Assembly (NCBI GenBank): GCA_945885515.1
Contig: CAMCZA010000002.1
Coordinates: 1-52,558, forward strand
Source: Ferrithrix thermotolerans DSM 19514
Lineage (GTDB): Bacteria; Actinomycetota; Acidimicrobiia; Acidimicrobiales; Ilumatobacteraceae
Direction: 5' to 3'
Length of the DNA: 52,558 bases
The position numbers and the translations under genes were made by a program. Shown in pieces: positions 4,645 through 48,096 of the stretch (positions within the stretch are counted from its first letter, which is position 1; each line of letters opens with the position of its first letter). Below the pieces are notes generated by a model. It was not told the origin of the DNA and made no database searches. It worked only from the letters and a program-made list of their open reading frames with translations.

Positions 4645-5583
4645 CTAGCTACATTTTTTTAGGATTGCATTGAAATCATCTGGGGTCTGCGCGTCAAACT
4701 GCATCTGCGCGCCAGTCGCTGGATGATCAAACTTTAAAGTCATTGCGTGCAACATTGGTCGCGGCGAAGAGAGCACGCTGCGAGCACCTCCGTAAACAAC
4801 ATCACCAACCACACTGTGTCCGAGTGCTGCCAAGTGAACGCGAATTTGATGCGTGCGACCCGTTTCTAATCCGCATTCAAGAAGCGAGCAGCTAACAGGG
4901 ACTGAAAAAACTTGGCGCACTTCATAATTCGTGCGGGCAGTTTTGCCCCCGGCTACCACCGCTACTTTTGTCGGGTCTCGCTGATCTCTTCCAAGAGGCG
5001 CATCAATCACACCACTTGGCGCACCCATCTCACCCCACACGAGTGTTAAATATCTACGCACAACAACTCGACGCGAGAGCGCATCAACTAGCGAGTCATA
5101 CGCCCGAGCGGTTCGAGCCATCACCATCAATCCGGTTGTTCCCGCGTCAAGACGATGAACTACTCCAGGTCGAAATGCATCGCCGACTGTAGCGATTTCA
5201 GGGTAGATCGCCAGTACTGCGTTGACCAAAGTGCCAGTCGGGTTGCCTGCGCCCGGGTGAACAACAATACCTGCCTGCTTGTTGATCACAATTACATCGT
5301 CATCAACATAAACAACATCAACTTTGATATTCGGCTCGGCTACGGGTAATTGTTTTTCTGGGAGCATCGACAGATCGATAACGATGCGCTGTCCTTCTGA
5401 AACTTTTATCTTGCCAGCCTTGACAACTACATCGTCCAAAAGTACGGCGCCAACATCGATGATTTGCGAGGCGCTTGACCGTGGAATATCTGCAACCAAA
5501 GAGATCACCCGATCTACTCGCTGCCCCGCTAGTGATGCAACAATCGTTTCTTCGATTATCCGTCCCGCCGAGTTATCGGTCAT
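4645..5583 (-). CDS. rluD: RluA/RluD-family 23S rRNA pseudouridine synthase
   Basis: 312 residues starting at ATG 5583, which overlaps the lspA stop by four bases (ATGA). An N-terminal S4-like RNA-binding region is followed by the catalytic domain. The motif [20 protein letters not shown] contains the catalytic Asp of the RluA family (HRLDxxTSG, here with T for S), and [29 protein letters not shown] and [10 protein letters not shown] follow in the usual order. The family isomerises uridines in large-subunit rRNA helix 69 (RluD) or related sites; the exact sites cannot be assigned from sequence. lspA-rluD pairing is common in actinobacteria. This is the last gene of the long minus-strand division block. 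Confidence 0.93.
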
Positions 5584-6065
5584 GCTCGTGCTCTCGTCAA
5601 GAACGCACCCAAGATCAAAAATCCTGCGCCAATTGTCACGGCCGAATCGGCCACATTGAAAACGGGAAACCACTGCAGATCAATAAAGTCGACAACGGCA
5701 CCGTTCATCCATCCGCCATCTCTGAACAGTCGGTCTAAAATATTTCCGATTGCGCCGCCGACAAGCAAACCAGTCCCGATAGTTGTAGCGAGTATTTTTG
5801 CATCACGCAAAGAAAGCATCAATCCGATTACGACAAATACTGCCAAAACTCCGATTATTCGGCCAACCCCTTGTCCTTGAGAAAACGCCATTCCTGAATT
5901 AAAAACAAGATTGAATTGCAATGTCCAAAATAGTTTGATGACTTTTCCTTCACTTAAAGCATTAAGTGCCCACTGTTTTGACAACTGGTCCGCAACGACC
6001 ACCACCAAAATAAACCAATAGGCAATCGACTTTGACGCACTGTTAGTTGTAGCGACATCATTCAT
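5580..6065 (-). CDS. lspA: Signal peptidase II (prolipoprotein peptidase)
   Basis: 161 residues, an aspartyl protease of the cytoplasmic membrane that cleaves lipobox signal peptides after diacylglyceryl attachment. Four hydrophobic segments are visible. The two catalytic aspartates lie in [11 protein letters not shown] and [11 protein letters not shown], and the family motif [18 protein letters not shown] is intact. A client exists in this window: the ferritin-like lipoprotein at 50039-50848 carries a lipobox. The gene lies 27 bases downstream of the DksA-like gene and overlaps rluD by four bases. Confidence 0.96.
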
Positions 6066-6092: not shown

Positions 6093-7217
6093 TTAATAAG
6101 AACCAATTCCACCTGCACGCTCTTGCACAAGTTCTGTTGTCCAAGGCAACGCCTTTAAACGCTCGCGAGGAATCGGCAACCCGGATCTACTTGAATATCC
6201 GTAATCGCCGGTCTCAATTCGTTTTAGAGCATCGTCGATCTCTTCAACCGTCTGACGCGCTGAAGCCGAAAGCGTTAAGTCGCGCTCGCGCTCTACAACC
6301 ATGGTGTCGCCCTCGCCGCCTTCATCGTCAAACTGCACATCGCCCATTTCTGAGTTTTCAACGATCGCATTGGCTTCACTTTCTAGACGATCTGCCTGAC
6401 CGAGCAAGTTTCGTCGCTCGTTTCGCAACATTTCGCGTTGCGAAGTTAAAAATTCAATGTTGAATTCTTTGGTCGGAGTAATTCCATCTTGCATCACACC
6501 CTTGATGATTGGTGGCTTAGGCGGCGCAACAGGTTTCCGATGCGACTCAATCTCTGCCAAACGCTCTGCTTCGCGCGCCGCCAACTTTGCGGCCTTCTCA
6601 GCCTCGCGCGCTTGTTTTGCAAGTTGTTTCTCTTTTTCTTTGGCAGCACGCAGAGCCAACCGCTCGGCAATTTGTTGAGCTTTTTGCTTTGCTCGTTCTT
6701 TGGCAATGCGGATTGATTCTTTTTTCTTTTCCTTTAGTGCTCGTGCTTTAGCAACGGCTGCCGCTCGCTTTTCGATTTCGCGTTGACGTTTTACTGCCTT
6801 GATTTGATCGAGACGAGCCTTGATTTCAAGTTTCTTTTTAAGATCTAGCTTCTTCTTGAGATCTAACTTTTTCTTCAACTCAAGCTTCTTCTTTAACTCA
6901 AGTTTCTTTTTCAACTCGAGCTTCTTCTTCAACTCCAGTTTCTTTTTCAACTCAAGCTTCTTTTTGAGTTCAAGCTTCTTCTTCAACTCCAGCTTCTTTT
7001 TGAGTTCAAGCTTCTTCTTGAGATCCAGCTTCTTTTTGAGTTCAAGCTTCTTCTTGAGTTCAAGCTTCTTCTTCAAAGCCGTCTTCGCCTTAGAGCTACT
7101 CTTCTTTGGCTTCAATTTTTTTGATCGAGATTTTTTTGAGACGTTCTTCTTTTTCGACACGCTCTTCTTTTTCGAGACACTCTTCTTCTTCTTTTTGCCA
7201 GCCTTCTTCGAACCCAC
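6093..7217 (-). CDS. DksA/TraR-like protein with long lysine-rich repeat domain and degenerate zinc finger
   Basis: 374 residues from GTG 7217, with Shine-Dalgarno GAGG about 8 bases upstream. There are three parts. Residues 1-47 are Lys/Ser-rich and histone H1-like. Residues 48-131 are about 14 tandem hexapeptides LKKKLE (or LKKKLD), followed by a highly charged Lys/Arg/Ala/Glu helix to about residue 235. The C-terminal ~135 residues resemble the DksA/TraR coiled coil plus zinc-finger fold, ending GDYGYSSRSGLPIPRERLKALP. All four zinc-ligand cysteines of the family are replaced (Ser, Ser, then non-Cys positions in TTELVQERA). The basic half suggests DNA or RNA binding; the C-terminal part may still contact RNA polymerase. 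It lies between ileS and lspA in the same run. Function is inferred, not established. Confidence 0.75.
   Translation of the reverse strand: MGSKKAGKKKKKSVSKKKSVSKKKNVSKKSRSKKLKPKKSSSKAKTALKKKLELKKKLELKKKLDLKKKLELKKKLELKKKLELKKKLELKKKLELKKKLELKKKLELKKKLELKKKLDLKKKLDLKKKLEIKARLDQIKAVKRQREIEKRAAAVAKARALKEKKKESIRIAKERAKQKAQQIAERLALRAAKEKEKQLAKQAREAEKAAKLAAREAERLAEIESHRKPVAPPKPPIIKGVMQDGITPTKEFNIEFLTSQREMLRNERRNLLGQADRLESEANAIVENSEMGDVQFDDEGGEGDTMVVERERDLTLSASARQTVEEIDDALKRIETGDYGYSSRSGLPIPRERLKALPWTTELVQERAGGIGSY
6825..7076 (-). repeat. 18-bp tandem repeat encoding LKKKL[ED] hexapeptides
   Basis: About 14 in-frame 18-bp units code for LKKKLE or LKKKLD and form residues 48-131 of the DksA-like protein. 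Units differ mostly at synonymous positions (Leu, Lys and Glu codons vary). The array is therefore not a very recent perfect duplication, although it could still change copy number. It is coding sequence, not a CRISPR array. Confidence 0.9.
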
Positions 7218-7269
7218 GATTTTTACCTCTCAAGCAAATCCAGTTGAGGATTCCGCTTATTTGACTAGG

Positions 7270-10200
7270 TTACGGTAGCGGATTTAAAGCCCTAAACGAT
7301 TCATTTTCTACTTCAACAAACACTGGTACACCATCCAAATCAAAATTTGGTGGCTGCGATTCAACGAAAACAACTTCAGTGGCGAGAGTTTCGGTCTTGA
7401 TTGTCTCGATGTGAACGAGAATCTGAGATCTGATTGATTCAGGCAGTCCGAGTTGCAATTTGATTCGATCAGAAACATCCAACCCTGACTCGCGTCGCTG
7501 CTGCTGTATCAGTCTGATCAAATCGCGCGACACTCCTTCGGCTTCAAGATCAGGAGTTAGATCGATATCCAAAACAATTACACCCTCGGAATTGCTGAGT
7601 TTCGCACTTGCACCAGAGCTCTTGGGTACCAGTTTCAATTGATACTCGCCTTCAAGAAGATCAATTGATCCGGCGGTAACAATATTTCCGTTACGCTTCC
7701 AGTCACCTTTTTTTACCGCAATGATAACTTTTTGAGTGTCTGCACCAAGTCTCGGACCAGCAACACTGGGCACAACCTGCAATTCAAAAGCCGCAACTGA
7801 CGAAACATCGTCCGTGAATTCAACTTTGCGCACATTTACTTCATCGGCGATCACATCAACGAAGTCTTTTAGCGCAGACGAATCAGCTGTTGCAACCGTC
7901 AAACTCGCAAGTGGCAGTCTGGCTCGGCGACCATGAACCTTGCGCAATGACAGCGTTGTTGAACATACATCGCGCACTCGATCCATTGAGGCGACCAAAG
8001 CATCGTCTTGACGCAAACCATCTGTAGTTGGCCAAGCCTGAAGGTGCACACTTCGCTCACCAGTAAGCCCACGAAAAATTTGCTCGGTGATCAGTGGCAG
8101 AACAGGGGCGGCAATCCGAGTTAAGAAGTGCAACACAGTGTGCAATGTATTAATCGCGCCGATCTCTCCAGACCAAAACCGGTCTCGGCTTCGACGGATG
8201 TACCAATTTGTAAGAACATCAAGAAACAATCGAATTTCTGCGCATGCGGCAAACAAGTCATTCTTGTCGAAACTCTTCGTAGTCGCAGCTACTAAATCGC
8301 GCAGTTTTGCAATTATGTATCTATCCAAAACATTTTCGCTGCTTGTGTCAACCTTGCCGATTAACGATTCGGCATTTGCGTAAAGCGTCAAAAAATACCA
8401 GCTGTTCCAAAGTGGCAACATAACTTGGCGCACAGTGTCGCGCATGCCGTCTTCTGTGACTGCAAAATCTGCGCCACGCAAAATTGATGAAGAAAGCAAA
8501 TACCAGCGCATCGCATCTGCTCCGTGGCTATCGAAAACCTTCATCGGGTCTGGATAATTGCGCAAACTTTTTGACATCTTTGCGCCATCTTCGCCCAAGA
8601 CGATGCCGTGACTTACACAATTCAAAAATGCAGGTCGATCAAACAAAGCGGTGGCCAACACATGCAAGGTATAAAACCAACCACGCGTCTGTCCGATGTA
8701 CTCGACAATAAAATCACCCGGATAATGATTTTCGAACCATTCTTGGTTCTCGAACGGATAATGCACTTGGGCAAACGGCATCGAGCCGCTTTCAAACCAG
8801 CAATCCAAAACTTCTGGCACACGGCGCATCATTGACTTGCCAGATGGATCATCTGGATTCGCGCGAACAAGTAGATCGATCTCTGGGCGATGCAACTCTT
8901 GAATATCTACTCCAAAGTCACGGCGCAATTCTTCGAGACTTCCGTAAACATCGATCCGCGGAAAATCTGGGTCGTCACTTCGCCACACCGGAATTGGTGA
9001 TCCCCAAAAACGATTGCGACTGATTGTCCAGTCGCGCGCATTTTCGAGCCACTTTCCAAAACTGCCATGCTTCAAATGATCGGGCACCCAAGTCACTTGC
9101 TCGTTGAGTTCAACCATCCGGTCTTTTATTGCGGTCACTTTTACAAACCACGAACCAACCGCTTTATAAATTAATGGCTTACCTGTGCGCCAACAATGCG
9201 GGTAAGCATGATCATAAGTTTCATGGCGCACTACGACACCGCGGTCTTTCAATACCCGAATGATTGCAGGGTTGGCATCAAACACAAGTTGACCTTCAAA
9301 GTCTCTGACTTCAGCGGTGAAACATCCACGCGAATCAACCGGAACAACCAGTTCAATGTTTTCTTCTTGGCAGACTCGTTGGTCGTCTTCACCGAAACCT
9401 GGCGCAAGATGCACCACACCGGTGCCGTCTTCAGTAGTTACGAAATCACCTGCGATTACACGAAACGAATTTGGATGATCTGAAAAATAATCAAACAACG
9501 GTTTGTAGGTACGCCCGACCAACTCAGACCCTCTAAGCGTTGACAAAATTTTTGGATCAGGCAACTCGCGCTCGTAGGCACCCAACCGATCGGCAGCGAT
9601 AATTAATTTGCGACCGCCATCTTGAATCACCACATAGTCGACATCGGGAGAAACAGCAAGCGCCAAATTTGACGGCAATGTCCATGGGGTTGTTGTCCAC
9701 GCAAGAATGAACTCGCCGGTTAAAAGTTCAAACGCGACCGTGAGTGCAGGATCTTGCACTTGTCGATATGCGTCATCCATTCGAGTTTCGGTGTTTGAAA
9801 GCGGTGTTTCAAGCGCCCATGAATATGGCAAAACTCGAAAACCTTCGTAGATCAATCCCTTGTCCCATAACTTCTTGAACGCCCACATCACACTCTCCAT
9901 ATATGGGGTGTCAAGAGTTTTGTAATCGTTCTCGAAATCAACCCATCGGGCTTGCCGAGTTACATATCGCTCCCAGTCGCTGGTGTATTGCAGAACCGAA
10001 CTTCGGCAATATTCATTGAACTTGTCGATGCCGTAATCGGTGATGGCTTGACGCCCTGAGATCTTGAGTTGTCGTTCTGCCTCTGCCTCAGCAGGAAGAC
10101 CATGACAGTCCCAGCCGAAGCGTCGATCAACGCGCTGACCACGCATCGTGCGATAGCGCGGTACGGCATCTTTGACAAAACCTGTCAGTAAATGACCATA

Positions 10201-10380
10201 ATGCGGCAGACCGTTTGCAAACGGCGGTCCGTCATAAAAAACAAATTCATTATCTCCATTGGGCCCGGCGTCGTGCAACGCCAGTGACGCTTCAAAGGTT
10301 TGGTCTTGCTTCCAATAATCAAGAGTCTTTGACTCAAGTAACGGAAAATTAGGTTGCGGCTCTACTTGCGGGTATGACAC
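7270..10380 (-). CDS. ileS: Isoleucyl-tRNA synthetase (eukaryote-like type)
   Basis: 1036 residues, class I synthetase charging tRNA-Ile. The ATP-site HIGH motif appears as HYGH at residues 60-63 ([15 protein letters not shown]), and KMSKS is intact in [15 protein letters not shown]. The editing domain ([21 protein letters not shown]) and anticodon-binding domain follow in order. Length, the HYGH form and the WFESGSMP segment match the eukaryote-like clade found in actinobacteria, a clade often tolerant of mupirocin; that phenotype is inference. Start is GTG 10380, just 6 bases after yggT. Placement after sepF-yggT is typical of Gram-positive division loci. Confidence 0.96.
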
Positions 10381-23168: not shown

Positions 23169-25124
23169 TCAGCGCACCGGACCAAGCTCGGCTGGACGAG
23201 GCCCAACACAGCCGGCGTCTCCTGCGGGAGGACGAATATTTAATTCATTGATTAATACCTGACCAATTCGAGCAAAGACTGGAGCAGCAGCCCTACCACC
23301 GAAACGATCTTTGGCCGTTGGATCTGGTTCATCAATTGACACCAAAACTGTCATTTGCGGATTGCCTGCTGGCAGAAAACCGGCAAAAGATGCAAAGTAC
23401 GCGAATGTTCCATCATCTGCCTCGTACTTGCCGTTGCTCTGAAGTTTGTAAGCGGTTCCAGTTTTTCCTGCGACGCTCATTCCAGAAAGTTGGGCAAGTG
23501 TTCCGGTTCCGTGACAGACGACATCCGTCATCATTCCGGCCATTGTCTTTGCTGTTGCTTCGCTCACGACCTGGCGCTTCTCGGACGCCGGCAAATTCTT
23601 CGAAACACCGTTTGCGTCAAGTGTTGACATTATTAGTTTCGGCGCAACATAAACACCTTTATTCGCAACGGTGTTCACTGCAGAGATCAGTTGCAAACCA
23701 CTGGCTGTATAGCCGTAGCCATAGGCAAAAGTAATCTTTTCAGTACCTTGCCAATCTTTTGCTGGCTTGAGTACTCCACGCGACTCATTTGGGTAGTTCA
23801 ACGGAGTCTTTACACCAAATCCGAACATCTTTAGATAATCATGATTTATTTCATTACTCAAAGTTCGTGAAATTATGACGGTTCCATTATTTGACGAGTC
23901 AACAAAAATTTTGCGAACGGTCATATCTTCTATCGGGTGAACATAGCCGTCAGAAACTTTGTACTCCCACTGGGTTCCCTTGTCATAGGTCTCTTGATAT
24001 GGGACCGTAAAAGTCGAGGCGGCATCTATTTTGCCTTCATTGATTGCTGCAGCAATGCTGAAAACTTTTGCCACGGACCCAGGCTCGTGAGATTCAATCG
24101 TTGAAAAGTTTCCAGACTCACTTGAATAACTTCCATCGTTGTTACGACGAATATTTGACATCGCATATATTTCACCCGTGTCCGTATCCATCACGATCAC
24201 CGAACCACCGCGAGCGCCAACAAATAAGACCTGCTGATAGAGAATCGAGTCAACTTGAAACTGGATTGTCCGGTCAATTGAAGTGACCAGTCTTTCTCCG
24301 GCAATTGCCTCGGTTACATCACTTGCACCTGCCGCCATTGACTTTCCACTTGCATTTACTTCGCGCGCAATTCGACCATCTTTGCCCGCAAGTAATTCTT
24401 GATACTGAAGTTCAAGACCAGAGATTCCAAGTCCATCAATATCTGTGCGCCCGACAAGCGCCAGCAACCCACTGCTTGTAAGAGCACGACCCGATTCGCG
24501 ATACGACGAAACACCTTTAAGACCGAGGGCGACAATAGTGTCAGCAATTTTTTGATCTGCCTGACGAGCCAAATACACAAAACTTGAAGACTTGTCTCGC
24601 ATCTTGATCGCCAATTCAAGTTCACTTTCTGGGGATAGGCGCATGATTCCTGCGACTACCCTGGCAACACCTTCTGGATCAATAACCGACCGAGGATCAG
24701 CAAAAACAGTGCGTGTCGGAATTGGCAGCGCTAGTTCACGACCATTTCTGTCAAGGATTGAGCCCCGCTCTGCGCGCAATGTTTGCACGCGGGTGCGTTG
24801 AGAGATACTCGCATCGCGATAATCACTTGCCCACTTAGTTTGCAACAGTGCAACGCGAACTCCGAGCCCAAACAACATTAGAGCTACGACCGAAAACATT
24901 ATTCGTGTGCGTTTACGCATCACTCCGGCCTTCAGGTCTTTAGTGAACGCATCGTAACCTTTGCCGATTAGCGAATTGGATCGATACGAAACCCCAGCGA
25001 TGTTCTCGCGGCGAGTATTCATTGCTCGAGCCTCGCGCTTGGAAACTCGACCGCCACTTGTAACTTTTTTGCGCTTGGATGCGCTGACACTATTTACTCG
25101 ACTCGCGCGAAGCGATTGGCTCAT
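23169..25124 (-). CDS. ftsI: Septal transpeptidase FtsI (PBP3, class B)
   Basis: 651 residues. A basic cytoplasmic N-terminus of about 73 residues precedes one membrane anchor (about 74-95), the PBP dimerisation domain (RAERGSILDRNGRELA at ~118-132) and the transpeptidase domain. The active-site serine is Ser350 in EPGSVAKVF (S-x-x-K), with SSN near 410-412 and KTGTA in SVAGKTGTAYKLQ. FtsI crosslinks septal peptidoglycan with FtsW. ATG 25124 overlaps the stop of the ftsL-like gene by four bases. Confidence 0.96.
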   Translation of the reverse strand: MSQSLRASRVNSVSASKRKKVTSGGRVSKREARAMNTRRENIAGVSYRSNSLIGKGYDAFTKDLKAGVMRKRTRIMFSVVALMLFGLGVRVALLQTKWASDYRDASISQRTRVQTLRAERGSILDRNGRELALPIPTRTVFADPRSVIDPEGVARVVAGIMRLSPESELELAIKMRDKSSSFVYLARQADQKIADTIVALGLKGVSSYRESGRALTSSGLLALVGRTDIDGLGISGLELQYQELLAGKDGRIAREVNASGKSMAAGASDVTEAIAGERLVTSIDRTIQFQVDSILYQQVLFVGARGGSVIVMDTDTGEIYAMSNIRRNNDGSYSSESGNFSTIESHEPGSVAKVFSIAAAINEGKIDAASTFTVPYQETYDKGTQWEYKVSDGYVHPIEDMTVRKIFVDSSNNGTVIISRTLSNEINHDYLKMFGFGVKTPLNYPNESRGVLKPAKDWQGTEKITFAYGYGYTASGLQLISAVNTVANKGVYVAPKLIMSTLDANGVSKNLPASEKRQVVSEATAKTMAGMMTDVVCHGTGTLAQLSGMSVAGKTGTAYKLQSNGKYEADDGTFAYFASFAGFLPAGNPQMTVLVSIDEPDPTAKDRFGGRAAAPVFARIGQVLINELNIRPPAGDAGCVGPRPAELGPVR

Positions 25125-25828
25125 GGTGCCGAACCAGTGGTCTCTAAAATTAAGTCATCTGATGTTTTTGGCTTGGCGATTGCCTCGTCCATTTCGCCAG
25201 TTGAAGCAAGCACCATTGTCACAACTTCAGCCGGCACATCTTCAAATTTTGCACCAGAACCCGGCCACATTCCCAAGATGATTGCTTGCGCCCTTAAATA
25301 ATCTGGCGCCCGCAACTCTGCTCTTTGCTGTCGCAATTCGTTGTAGTGCTGGCGGGCAAGTCGCACATCGGTGCTAACTCTGTCCAAGCGAAGTTGTTGT
25401 TCGGCAATAACTGTTTGAAAAATCACGATGAATGCAAGCACCGATGTGAGCACAACTATCAGCGTCGTTGCTTTTGAAAACTTTGATTTCGTAATTGGCC
25501 TGACTACCCGAAGTTCAGGCGGATTAGCTTTGCGTCGCGTGGCTTGTCGAGCGACTGGTCGCGTAACTTGTTGAGCGACTGGTCGCGTAACTGGTCGAGC
25601 AACTTGTTGCGGTACTGGTCGCGTAACTTGACGAGCAACTTGACGAGTTACTGGTCGAGTAACTGACTGGGTACCACCACGAGCGACTTGTCGAGCAACT
25701 GGTCGAGCGACTGGTCTCGTAACTTGTCGAGTGACTGGCTGCGTATTATTGCGCTTTCTCGCCCGATGCACTGGCTCTGTTCGTAGGTGACGAACAGGTG
25801 GCTGGCGATGCTCCATTGCCGCCGACAT
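25121..25828 (-). CDS. ftsL: FtsL/DivIC-like septum protein with V-[TA]-R-[PQ] repeat region
   Basis: 235 residues from ATG 25828, one base after the rsmH stop. The layout is a basic N-terminus (1-31), about 17 tetrapeptides of the form V-[TA]-R-[PQ] (about 32-99), a further basic stretch, one membrane segment (about 120-141: TTLIVVLTSVLAFIVIFQTVIA), then a coiled coil (about 143-180, with RLDRVSTDVRLARQHYNELRQQRAEL) and a short acidic extracytoplasmic tail. Position between rsmH and ftsI plus TM-coiled-coil topology identify it as FtsL; sequence identity in this family is always low. Ordinary FtsL is 100-150 residues, so the cytoplasmic repeat region is an unusual addition. Confidence 0.8.
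   Translation of the reverse strand: MSAAMEHRQPPVRHLRTEPVHRARKRNNTQPVTRQVTRPVARPVARQVARGGTQSVTRPVTRQVARQVTRPVPQQVARPVTRPVAQQVTRPVARQATRRKANPPELRVVRPITKSKFSKATTLIVVLTSVLAFIVIFQTVIAEQQLRLDRVSTDVRLARQHYNELRQQRAELRAPDYLRAQAIILGMWPGSGAKFEDVPAEVVTMVLASTGEMDEAIAKPKTSDDLILETTGSAP
25532..25735 (-). repeat. 12-bp coding tandem repeat in the ftsL-like gene
   Basis: About 17 units of 12 bp encode V-[TA]-R-[PQ] tetrapeptides, with a few variants (GTQS, VPQQ, VAQQ). The repeat gives an arginine- and proline-rich, positively charged cytoplasmic segment. On the + strand it appears as repeated CGAGCAACTTG- and CGAGTAACTGG-like words. It is in frame throughout and is not a CRISPR array. Confidence 0.88.
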
Positions 25829-25829
25829 T

Positions 25830-26828
25830 TCAGCCCACCGCCCCGGCAAAAGTTTTTTCAATGACCCGCAGTCGTGCAGATTTTGCACGCCGATTTTCAG
25901 ACTGTTCTATATCGCTTGGATGCTGAGAAATTCGCACCCGCCGACCTCGTCGCTGACCTAGTTGAGACTCATGCACAAACGGTGATCCAATTTTTGGTTC
26001 ATCGGTGTCATTTTCCGCAGATCGAAATACTTGTTTAACTATTCGATTTTCTCCAGAGTGGTAAGTCAAAACAGCGACGCGCCCACCGACGTTGGTGGCG
26101 TCTATTGCGGTTTGCAACGCCTGCGCAAGAATCTCGAGTTCTTTATTTACTTCAATACGAATTGCTTGAAATGTCCGCTTTGCAGGGTGCCCTCCGGTTC
26201 TGCGCGCTGGCGCAGGAATTGCCGAGACAATAATTTCTGCCAAGTGAATAGTCGTATTAATAGGTCGAGCAGCGACAATTGCGCGGGCAATGCGACGCGC
26301 AAATCGCTCATCGGCATTGCTGGCGATCAAATGTGCCAACTCCGACTCTTCGTAAGTATTTACCACATCAGCAGCGCTTACTTCACCGCGCTGATCCATT
26401 CGCATGTCAAGTGGTCCATCATTGCGATACGAAAATCCGCGCTCTGCAATATCTAATTGCGGAGAAGAAACACCTAGATCAAAAAGCGCGCCAGAGATTT
26501 GATCTATTGATAACTCTGCTAATACTTGGTTTAGAGAATCGAAACGAGCCCTTCGAATTGTCAGGCGACCATGAACCGAAGGGTCTTCGACGATCATTTT
26601 TTGTGCATTGGCAACTGCAAACGCATCTTGATCTAACCCCAAAATTTGTAGCGAAGGATGGGCTTTCAAAATTGCTTTTGAGTGTCCGCCAAGACCAAAT
26701 GTTGCATCAACAACAACACCAGCAGGAACCGTGGCGAAACATTCAACAATCTCGTCGACCATCACGGGGTCGTGTGAATTAGAAATCGAATCAGATGATT
26801 TGGACTGTGAGTTTTTTTGACTTGTCAT
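25830..26828 (-). CDS. rsmH: 16S rRNA (cytosine(1402)-N4)-methyltransferase RsmH (MraW)
   Basis: 332 residues from ATG 26828; a GTG six codons upstream (26846) is a possible alternative. RsmH uses S-adenosylmethionine to methylate C1402 in the decoding centre. Motifs seen are HDPVMVDEIVECF, VVDATFGLGGHSKAIL (SAM-binding glycine loop), LFDLGVSSPQLDIAERGFSYRNDGPLDMRMD, HPAKRTFQAIRIEVNKELE and LTYHSGENRIVKQVF. It is second in the dcw cluster, following a 217-bp structured spacer after mraZ. Confidence 0.96.
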   Translation of the reverse strand: MTSQKNSQSKSSDSISNSHDPVMVDEIVECFATVPAGVVVDATFGLGGHSKAILKAHPSLQILGLDQDAFAVANAQKMIVEDPSVHGRLTIRRARFDSLNQVLAELSIDQISGALFDLGVSSPQLDIAERGFSYRNDGPLDMRMDQRGEVSAADVVNTYEESELAHLIASNADERFARRIARAIVAARPINTTIHLAEIIVSAIPAPARRTGGHPAKRTFQAIRIEVNKELEILAQALQTAIDATNVGGRVAVLTYHSGENRIVKQVFRSAENDTDEPKIGSPFVHESQLGQRRGRRVRISQHPSDIEQSENRRAKSARLRVIEKTFAGAVG

Positions 26829-27045
26829 GAAAGTTGTGCAACTCACAACTCGTCACTGCTGTTGCCTCGCTTATCAGCAGCCCCCCGATCAACGATGCTC
26901 TCGGGATTTCTCCCCGAAATACGAGATAGTAGCGAGCGGAGTTGAGTGCTATCCATCTTGTTGATCGGAAGACTGCTGATAAGCGAAACTCATGCAACTT
27001 GTGACGGTTGCGAAAAGAGTTTGTTGCTCGACCTCCCTTCTTCTT
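26829..27045 (-). ncRNA. Candidate structured mRNA leader between mraZ and rsmH (mraW-motif-like position)
   Basis: This 217-base non-coding spacer holds a long imperfect hairpin. The outer arms are a perfect 14-bp match: TCGCTTATCAGCAG at 26867-26880 with its complement at 26973-26986. The next pairing is 9 bp, 26885-26893 with 26960-26968. Inside is a small hairpin, ATTTC/GAAAT (26906-26910 and 26916-26920), enclosed by CTCG/CGAG (26900-26903 and 26922-26925). In the cluster's sense the structure would end about 40 bases before rsmH. The mraW RNA motif is a known actinobacterial cis-element at this spot. Whether this sequence fits that family's consensus is not checked, so the assignment is by position and structure only. 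Confidence 0.6.
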
Positions 27046-46587: not shown

Positions 46588-48096
46588 ATGACTACACAGC
46601 CGACACAGCCAATCGAATTTTCAACAGACATTTCTGAAATCTCCGATCGCTACCAAACAATCTCAACGCCGCTCTCACTTGAGTTTGTTGCAGAGCTAAA
46701 CAAACTTTGCGCAAGTTCGACAGAACTCGCCGATCGCGTTCAGCACTCGCGAGATTGGTGGCCACTGGCGATGCACTGGTCACTGAATGCACAAACCGCC
46801 AAGCGCGCTGACGCGGTTTGTCGACCAACAACAACCAAACAAGTGAGCGACGTGGTCGCTTTATGCGCTAAAAACTCCGTGCCGGTGACAGTCTCTGGCG
46901 GGCGTTCTGGGGTTTGTGGTGCTGCAATCCCGTTGTTCGGCGGCGTTGTGATTGACATGACATCACTGGCTAAGGTAATCAGTGTTGACGAAATTTCAGG
47001 ACTTGTTGAGGTCCTTCCCGGAACCTTCGGCCCAGATCTCGAAAATGCTCTGCGCGAAAAACACGGTTTGTCTGTGGGCCACTTTCCGCAATCGTTTGAT
47101 ATCTCAACTGTTGGTGGATGGATTGGTTCGCGCGGAGCAGGCCAGTTTTCAACTCGCTACGGCAAGATCGACGACATGGTTGCCGGACTTGAAGTCGTGC
47201 TTGCAGATGGCTCGGTAATTCTGACAGGCACCGAGCCGGCGGGTGCTGCAGGGCCGAATTTGACTTCACTATTTATTGGTAGCGAAGGTTCGCTCGGGAT
47301 AATTACAAAGGTTTGGCTTCGCGCCCACCCGGTTGCCCCGAGTGAACGCCGCGCCGCATATATGTTCGGTTCGTTTGCCCAAGCCGTTGAAGCAATGCGA
47401 CTAGCAATTCGCTCGGGAGCAACCCCGGCCGTGTTGCGACTTTATGACGAGCGCGAAAGCAAACGCGCCCATGGTGGTGACGGGTCGCAGTGCGCATTAT
47501 TGGTGCTTGATGAGGGCGAACAAGTATTGATTGACGCGATGATGCAAGTTGTTGACAATGCATGTCGTGCAAATAATTCGCAACCTGCAGATGTCGCACT
47601 TGTCGAGCACTGGATGAGTCATCGCAACGATACGAGTGGACTACAGATTTTGTCCAAAAAAGGTTTCGTAATTGACACGATGGAGGTTTCGGTAAGTTGG
47701 TCTCGCGTCAATACGGTTGCAGAGTCGGTAAAAAAAGCAATCATGACGGTGCCTGGGGCGCGAAGCGCAAGTTGCCATATTTCGCACAGCTACATTGACG
47801 GCGCTTGCATATATTTTACTTTTGTCGCTGAGCCGAGTGTCAATTCTCTCGACGCAATCGAATCGTCTTACGAAGCGATTTGGAATGCAGCACAAAACTC
47901 GGCTCTTGATGCCGGGGCGAATCTTTCGCATCATCACGGAGTTGGAATAAATCGTGCCAAATTTATGAAGCGTGCACTCGGGCCAGCACACGATGTTTTG
48001 ACTGCGATCAAATTTGCACTTGATCCAAAAGATATTTTGAATCCTGGAAAATTTGCAATTGCATCCAAACGCGGTGAAGTAACAACTAAGCGGTGA
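46588..48096 (+). CDS. FAD-binding oxidase, alkyl-DHAP synthase-like
   Basis: 502 residues from ATG 46588, with AAAGG upstream. VMO/PCMH-type FAD domain: KQVSDVVALCAKNSVPVTVSGGRSGVCGAAIPLFGGVVIDMTSLAKV, then VGHFPQSFDISTVGGWIGSRGAGQFSTRYGKIDDMVAGLEVVLADG. The C-terminal cap ends LSHHHGVGINRAKFMKRALGPAHDVLTAIKFALDPKDILNPGKF, with the His-rich HHHG motif and ALDPKxILNPGK end typical of alkylglycerone-phosphate synthase homologues. Ether-lipid synthesis from acyl-DHAP is a possibility; the alternative is a 2-hydroxyacid or glycerol-derivative dehydrogenase. Position between glpD, which makes DHAP, and an FGGY kinase favours a C3-phosphate substrate. Confidence 0.82.
   Translation: MTTQPTQPIEFSTDISEISDRYQTISTPLSLEFVAELNKLCASSTELADRVQHSRDWWPLAMHWSLNAQTAKRADAVCRPTTTKQVSDVVALCAKNSVPVTVSGGRSGVCGAAIPLFGGVVIDMTSLAKVISVDEISGLVEVLPGTFGPDLENALREKHGLSVGHFPQSFDISTVGGWIGSRGAGQFSTRYGKIDDMVAGLEVVLADGSVILTGTEPAGAAGPNLTSLFIGSEGSLGIITKVWLRAHPVAPSERRAAYMFGSFAQAVEAMRLAIRSGATPAVLRLYDERESKRAHGGDGSQCALLVLDEGEQVLIDAMMQVVDNACRANNSQPADVALVEHWMSHRNDTSGLQILSKKGFVIDTMEVSVSWSRVNTVAESVKKAIMTVPGARSASCHISHSYIDGACIYFTFVAEPSVNSLDAIESSYEAIWNAAQNSALDAGANLSHHHGVGINRAKFMKRALGPAHDVLTAIKFALDPKDILNPGKFAIASKRGEVTTKR

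Follow-up and report, generated by a model that had tools for sequence, protein, structure and literature searches.

The window analysed here is a stretch of 52,558 nucleotides from Ferrithrix thermotolerans DSM 19514, and the gene of interest lies in it within the gene order ileS, ddbA-like gene, lspA, rluD-type gene. Its 374-residue product is divided into a strongly basic N-terminal part (the tail; net charge +69 over residues 1-234) and an acidic C-terminal part (the head; net charge -11 over residues 235-374). The features of the locus are as follows.

7270-10380, minus strand: ileS, the upstream neighbour, on the same strand as the ddbA-like gene (Pfam)
7225-7232, minus strand: ribosome-binding site TGAGAGGT, with GAGGT 7 nt before the GTG (sequence)
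6093-7217, minus strand: ddbA-like gene, basic tail and DksA-type head, 374 residues, GTG start (open reading frame, and orthology via neighbours)
7077-7217, minus strand: residues 1-47, Lys/Ser basic tract, predicted to be disordered (sequence; pLDDT 42-47)
6825-7076, minus strand: residues 48-131, 14 LKKKL[ED] units, net charge +28 (sequence)
6540-6824, minus strand: residues 132-226, basic and rich in K, R, A and E, the later part of a predicted helix 50-226 (aligned genus-wide; model)
6459-6539, minus strand: residues 227-253, Pro-rich linker HRKPVAPPKPPIIKG and DGITPTKEF motif (alignment; model)
6357-6458, minus strand: residues 254-287, predicted DksA coiled coil helix 1 (AlphaFold2 models)
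6315-6356, minus strand: residues 288-301, acidic tip loop EMGDVQFDDEGG, nearly invariant (alignment; model)
6210-6314, minus strand: residues 302-336, predicted coiled coil helix 2, beginning EGDTMVVERERDL (alignment; model)
6096-6209, minus strand: residues 337-374, zinc-finger-like globular end with S342, S345, L363 and E366 at the ligand positions (alignment)
5580-6065, minus strand: lspA, the downstream neighbour, on the same strand as the ddbA-like gene (Pfam Peptidase_A8)
4645-5673, minus strand: rluD-type pseudouridine synthase (Pfam)

An antisense open reading frame at 6820-7278 was rejected as a gene and is a shadow of the lysine codons. Elsewhere in the window, an open reading frame on the minus strand (25121-25888) adjoins mraW/rsmH (25830-26846) and carries a TRPVARQV-type repeat with a 12-bp period and about 16 copies (25546-25738) ahead of a likely membrane helix; it is without a Pfam match and may be FtsL by its position. 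A 39-bp tandem repeat is present in two copies at 47992-48069.

The original prediction was of a DksA-type C-terminal half in which all four zinc cysteines had been replaced while the residues around them were kept. The protein indeed contains no cysteine, and GDYG, GLPIP and RLKALP are each present. When the C-terminal 140 residues were modelled with AlphaFold2 from a 47-sequence alignment, the result (mean pLDDT 86) showed a pair of long helices together with a small globular end, with pLDDT 92-95 in the blocks matching the zinc finger. The best eight Foldseek matches in the PDB were all DksA proteins, with E-values down to 7.9e-05 and E ≤ 0.001 in the first five only; the entries matched (4ijj, 1tjl, 5vsw, 7khi, 2kq9 and 6ptg) comprise Pseudomonas DksA2, the DksA proteins of Agrobacterium and Chlamydia, and E. 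coli DksA, the last both alone and in complex with RNA polymerase. No CarD- or RbpA-like fold was among the matches shown. A sequence profile search agreed with Foldseek in matching DksA chains (E 1.8e-08), and the homologues, including four-cysteine orthologues, align with DksA and not with another family. The C-terminal domain is thus predicted to have the DksA fold, as had been proposed. Sequence matches to EspB (E about 0.1) were chance matches between helices that disappeared with the profile search, and a match of the tail to DUF5830 (E 0.23) was due to low complexity.

The curated family models did not recognise the protein at their own thresholds. Pfam zf-dskA_traR (PF01258) gave 12.2 bits against a cut-off of 24.9, and the NCBI DksA models gave 37-41 bits (TIGR02420: 41) against 115.5. 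The best NCBIfam score, 67 bits, was to the YteA family (TIGR02890), yet this was also far under its cut-off of 134; the genomic place of that family is different, and it is not known to have a basic tail. The low scores of the Pfam and NCBIfam DksA models probably arise because these models lean on the cysteines. The C4 zinc finger is absent as well. Since the cut-offs were missed, membership of the DksA family rests on the predicted fold, the neighbouring genes and the intermediate homologues.

By gene order and family profile, Streptomyces DdbA (SCO2075) has its Ilumatobacteraceae orthologue in this gene. Searching 41 relatives turned the gene up in 39, including all 16 that are nearly complete, and in nearly all of their loci it is flanked by ileS, lspA and rluD; among named relatives, the closest are metagenome genomes of freshwater Acidimicrobiia/Ilumatobacteraceae (acIV). 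The same flanks enclose a copy with a K/A-rich tail in Streptomyces-like genomes (7-10 Mb, family f46), and we take the Streptomyces-like loci sampled to be SCO2075 orthologues from their domain order and from the S. coelicolor gene order. With DdbA of S. coelicolor the window protein shares a Lys-rich, histone-like N-terminus and a DksA C-terminus in the same order, as well as the position between ileS and lspA/rluD that the gene holds in Streptomyces-like genomes: the C-terminus is of DksA type, the tail is Lys-rich and H1-like (+69 over 234 residues) and the gene stands in the ileS-ddbA-lspA-rluD place. The two differ in that the Streptomyces-type copies keep four zinc cysteines (loci L143, L146, L147, L149 and L150; four cysteines in 4 of the 5, and three, CCCD, in one), whereas the window protein has none, and in that the A/K-rich or Pro/Ala/Lys type of tail is replaced in the window by a predicted helical LKKKL[ED] array. 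Later reviews present Streptomyces DdbA as a bifunctional nucleoid protein whose N-terminus resembles H1 and whose C-terminus is of DksA type, and report that deleting ddbA affects how the nucleoid of spores is compacted and how well spores resist stress (PMC9043899, PMC11942623, PMC11229371). The earlier suggestion of a chromatin-linked fusion is therefore already in print for the Streptomyces orthologue; the architecture itself is known, and it is the lineage detail that is new.

In the alignment, the zinc positions of E. coli DksA (C114, C117, C135 and C138) read S342, S345, L363 and E366. No cysteine occurs at these four positions in any of the 114 Ilumatobacteraceae-type rows, which read SSLE (99), SSSE (12) or STSE (1), plus two that are truncated; about 90 of the rows are distinct, the remainder being the same genomes from two collections. 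Two serines thus replace the first cysteine pair in nearly all of the cysteine-free sequences. Sister families within the order read CSRY, CSRH or CSRF, two class-level relatives read CSCC, and the other relatives, including the Streptomyces-type copies, read CCCC or CCCD. A maximum-likelihood tree built from 66 sequences places all cysteine-free members in one clade with support of 100/100, and the four ligand states need three changes on it, the minimum possible. The tree has a few long branches, of which the longest (L137, L133 and L159) lie outside the cysteine-free clade and one (L122, 0.78) lies inside. The ligands were lost stepwise, from CCCC through CSR-x with one cysteine to SSLE with none. 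The cysteine-free state has a single origin, within Ilumatobacteraceae, and is fixed in that family (114 of 114 rows). Separately, about 3 kb into each of the loci L155 and L156 of other Actinomycetota, and away from ileS/lspA, there is a second DksA-like family that has also lost zinc ligands (SSTE and CTTA), apparently in an independent event.

Two well-studied DksA proteins offer a comparison. The head shares by prediction the coiled coil and globular fold of E. coli DksA (1tjl, 5vsw), but the E. coli protein has a four-cysteine zinc finger, the ppGpp-site residues and no basic tail. The best structural match to the head is DksA2 of Pseudomonas aeruginosa (4ijj), which has a zinc-free DksA fold but keeps two cysteines and is without a basic tail, whereas the window protein lacks all four ligands. 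DksA2 is a zinc-starvation paralogue (PMC9213440); in the genus of the window, by contrast, no zinc-finger form of DksA was found among 29 congeneric genomes, in a search blind to other cysteine-free members.

The response to ppGpp may also differ. The residues K98, R129 and K139, which we take to be those of the ppGpp site in E. coli DksA, correspond to E326, L357 and R367 and so are mostly not kept; in the Streptomyces-type copies the K98 position is Q and the R129 position is F. An E. coli-type response should therefore not be assumed, and the alignment makes it doubtful that the protein depends on ppGpp in the way E. coli DksA does. The genome does encode a RelA/SpoT enzyme (ppGpp synthetase) and CarD-type domains. 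The idea that GreA is absent, leaving the DksA-type protein as the sole secondary-channel factor, was rejected, since 145 of 148 genomes sampled from the order have GreA, and among 29 congeners it is present in 19, including every one of the 4 with completeness of 90% or more and little contamination; it is missing from the genome of the window because the assembly is incomplete.

The head is under strong purifying selection, with dN/dS of 0.016-0.037 between the window gene and its congeners where computable. Conservation in the alignment is among the highest at the acidic tip and in the two coiled-coil helices, the tip EMGDVQFDDEGGEGD being nearly invariant across the 47 aligned sequences. 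These observations bear on the possibility that the head is inactive on RNA polymerase and has been retained to cap, or to dimerise, a histone-like DNA binder that packs the nucleoid, as a folded module. Such a role would fit with the loss of the zinc ligands and of the ppGpp-site residues K98 and R129, and with the tail being the most basic part of the protein. However, a mere cap would be expected to drift more than a dN/dS of about 0.02 allows, and we consider this role rather unlikely.

In the tail, 14 tandem LKKKL[ED] units run in register through residues 48-131 (window positions 7076-6825) behind the basic residues 1-47, in agreement with the approximately 14 repeats and basic tracts first noticed; when the N-terminal half was shuffled 2000 times, never more than three near-identical tandem units arose. 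The units comprise 12 distinct DNA sequences for nearly one peptide, with 245 synonymous and 33 non-synonymous codon differences between them, and it is therefore the peptide, not the DNA repeat, that has been preserved. Congeners with a readable array have about 4 to 17 in-register units, differing between close species, although the lower counts are approximate because N runs or contig ends break the arrays (L007, L015 and L037). N runs lie inside the tail repeats of the L007, L015, L038, L044 and L063 assemblies, so that repeat numbers from metagenomes may be underestimates. The LKKKL[ED] array is found mainly in the genus of the window, with a variant in L095. Two congeners use KKELAR repeats instead, and in the congeneric loci L019, L020, L047 and L048 these partly replace the LKKKLE array with the same period. 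The tails of other relatives are of Pro/Ala/Lys type (L057, L071 and L098) or of a helical-type Lys/Glu/Ala composition (L063, L066, L070 and L074). If the array had expanded neutrally, in the manner of a microsatellite, and did nothing more than add charge, the drift in copy number between close species and the motif variants KKELAR and QKKLA would be readily explained; but the peptide has remained fixed while the DNA of the units diverged, and a basic tail is retained in the fully read relatives despite the change of motif, making a neutral array unlikely.

In the full-length AlphaFold2 model, residues 50-226 form a single helix of 177 residues (pLDDT about 64-95; full-model pTM only 0.28), which would be about 26 nm long at 0.15 nm per residue. 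Each Glu in LKKKLE is flanked by Lys at -4, -3, +3 and +4, and Glu-Lys spacing of this kind is the pattern expected for a salt-bridge-stabilised single helix. The hydrophobic residues are spread round the helix, with a moment near zero at 100 degrees, and the helix would therefore be neither amphipathic nor a heptad coiled coil in the ordinary sense. Because AlphaFold2 is prone to modelling sequence rich in lysine and glutamate as long helices, the helical tail is to be read as a prediction. With this proviso, it appears that a Pro/Ala/Lys tail became a hexapeptide array in the genus of the window, and we infer from the models that the tail there would be long, stiff and helical.

Composition alone would suit the tail to any polyanion, and it could bind RNA (nascent transcripts or rRNA) or polyphosphate rather than DNA, as part of a transcription-linked RNA factor. 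Nothing in the present analysis points to RNA, and the Streptomyces orthologue is described as DNA-binding and as affecting nucleoid compaction (PMC9043899, PMC11942623); RNA or polyphosphate as the ligand is accordingly very unlikely.

We propose instead that the protein is a DdbA orthologue in which a zinc-free DksA head and a DNA-binding tail would link transcription to nucleoid compaction, a reading to which we give a probability of about two in three. A head that acts on RNA polymerase joined to a tail that binds DNA is the best-supported view of the mechanism. The globular end would keep its shape by ordinary packing instead of by zinc, the N-terminal tail (+69) would bind DNA without sequence preference, and the two together would tie nucleoid compaction to transcription, as has been suggested for DdbA in Streptomyces. 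We infer each of its parts, namely binding of RNA polymerase by the head, binding of DNA by the tail and independence of zinc. A more specific version is tentative and on balance improbable: the zinc-independent head would sit on a basic single helix of about 26 nm whose length is set by hexapeptide copy number, serving as a tether or ruler that connects RNA polymerase with nucleoid DNA, and as the only DksA-type factor of the lineage.

This regulator is single-copy and vertically inherited, and the stepwise loss of its zinc finger provides a natural series bearing on the role of zinc in DksA. The cysteines of DksA have been treated as a redox or zinc sensor in work on Salmonella and Pseudomonas, and the Ilumatobacteraceae lineage appears to manage without DksA redox or zinc sensing by cysteines. 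The genus of the window would furthermore represent a clean case in which a disordered, histone-like tail has been swapped for a predicted helical repeat while the head has remained nearly fixed.
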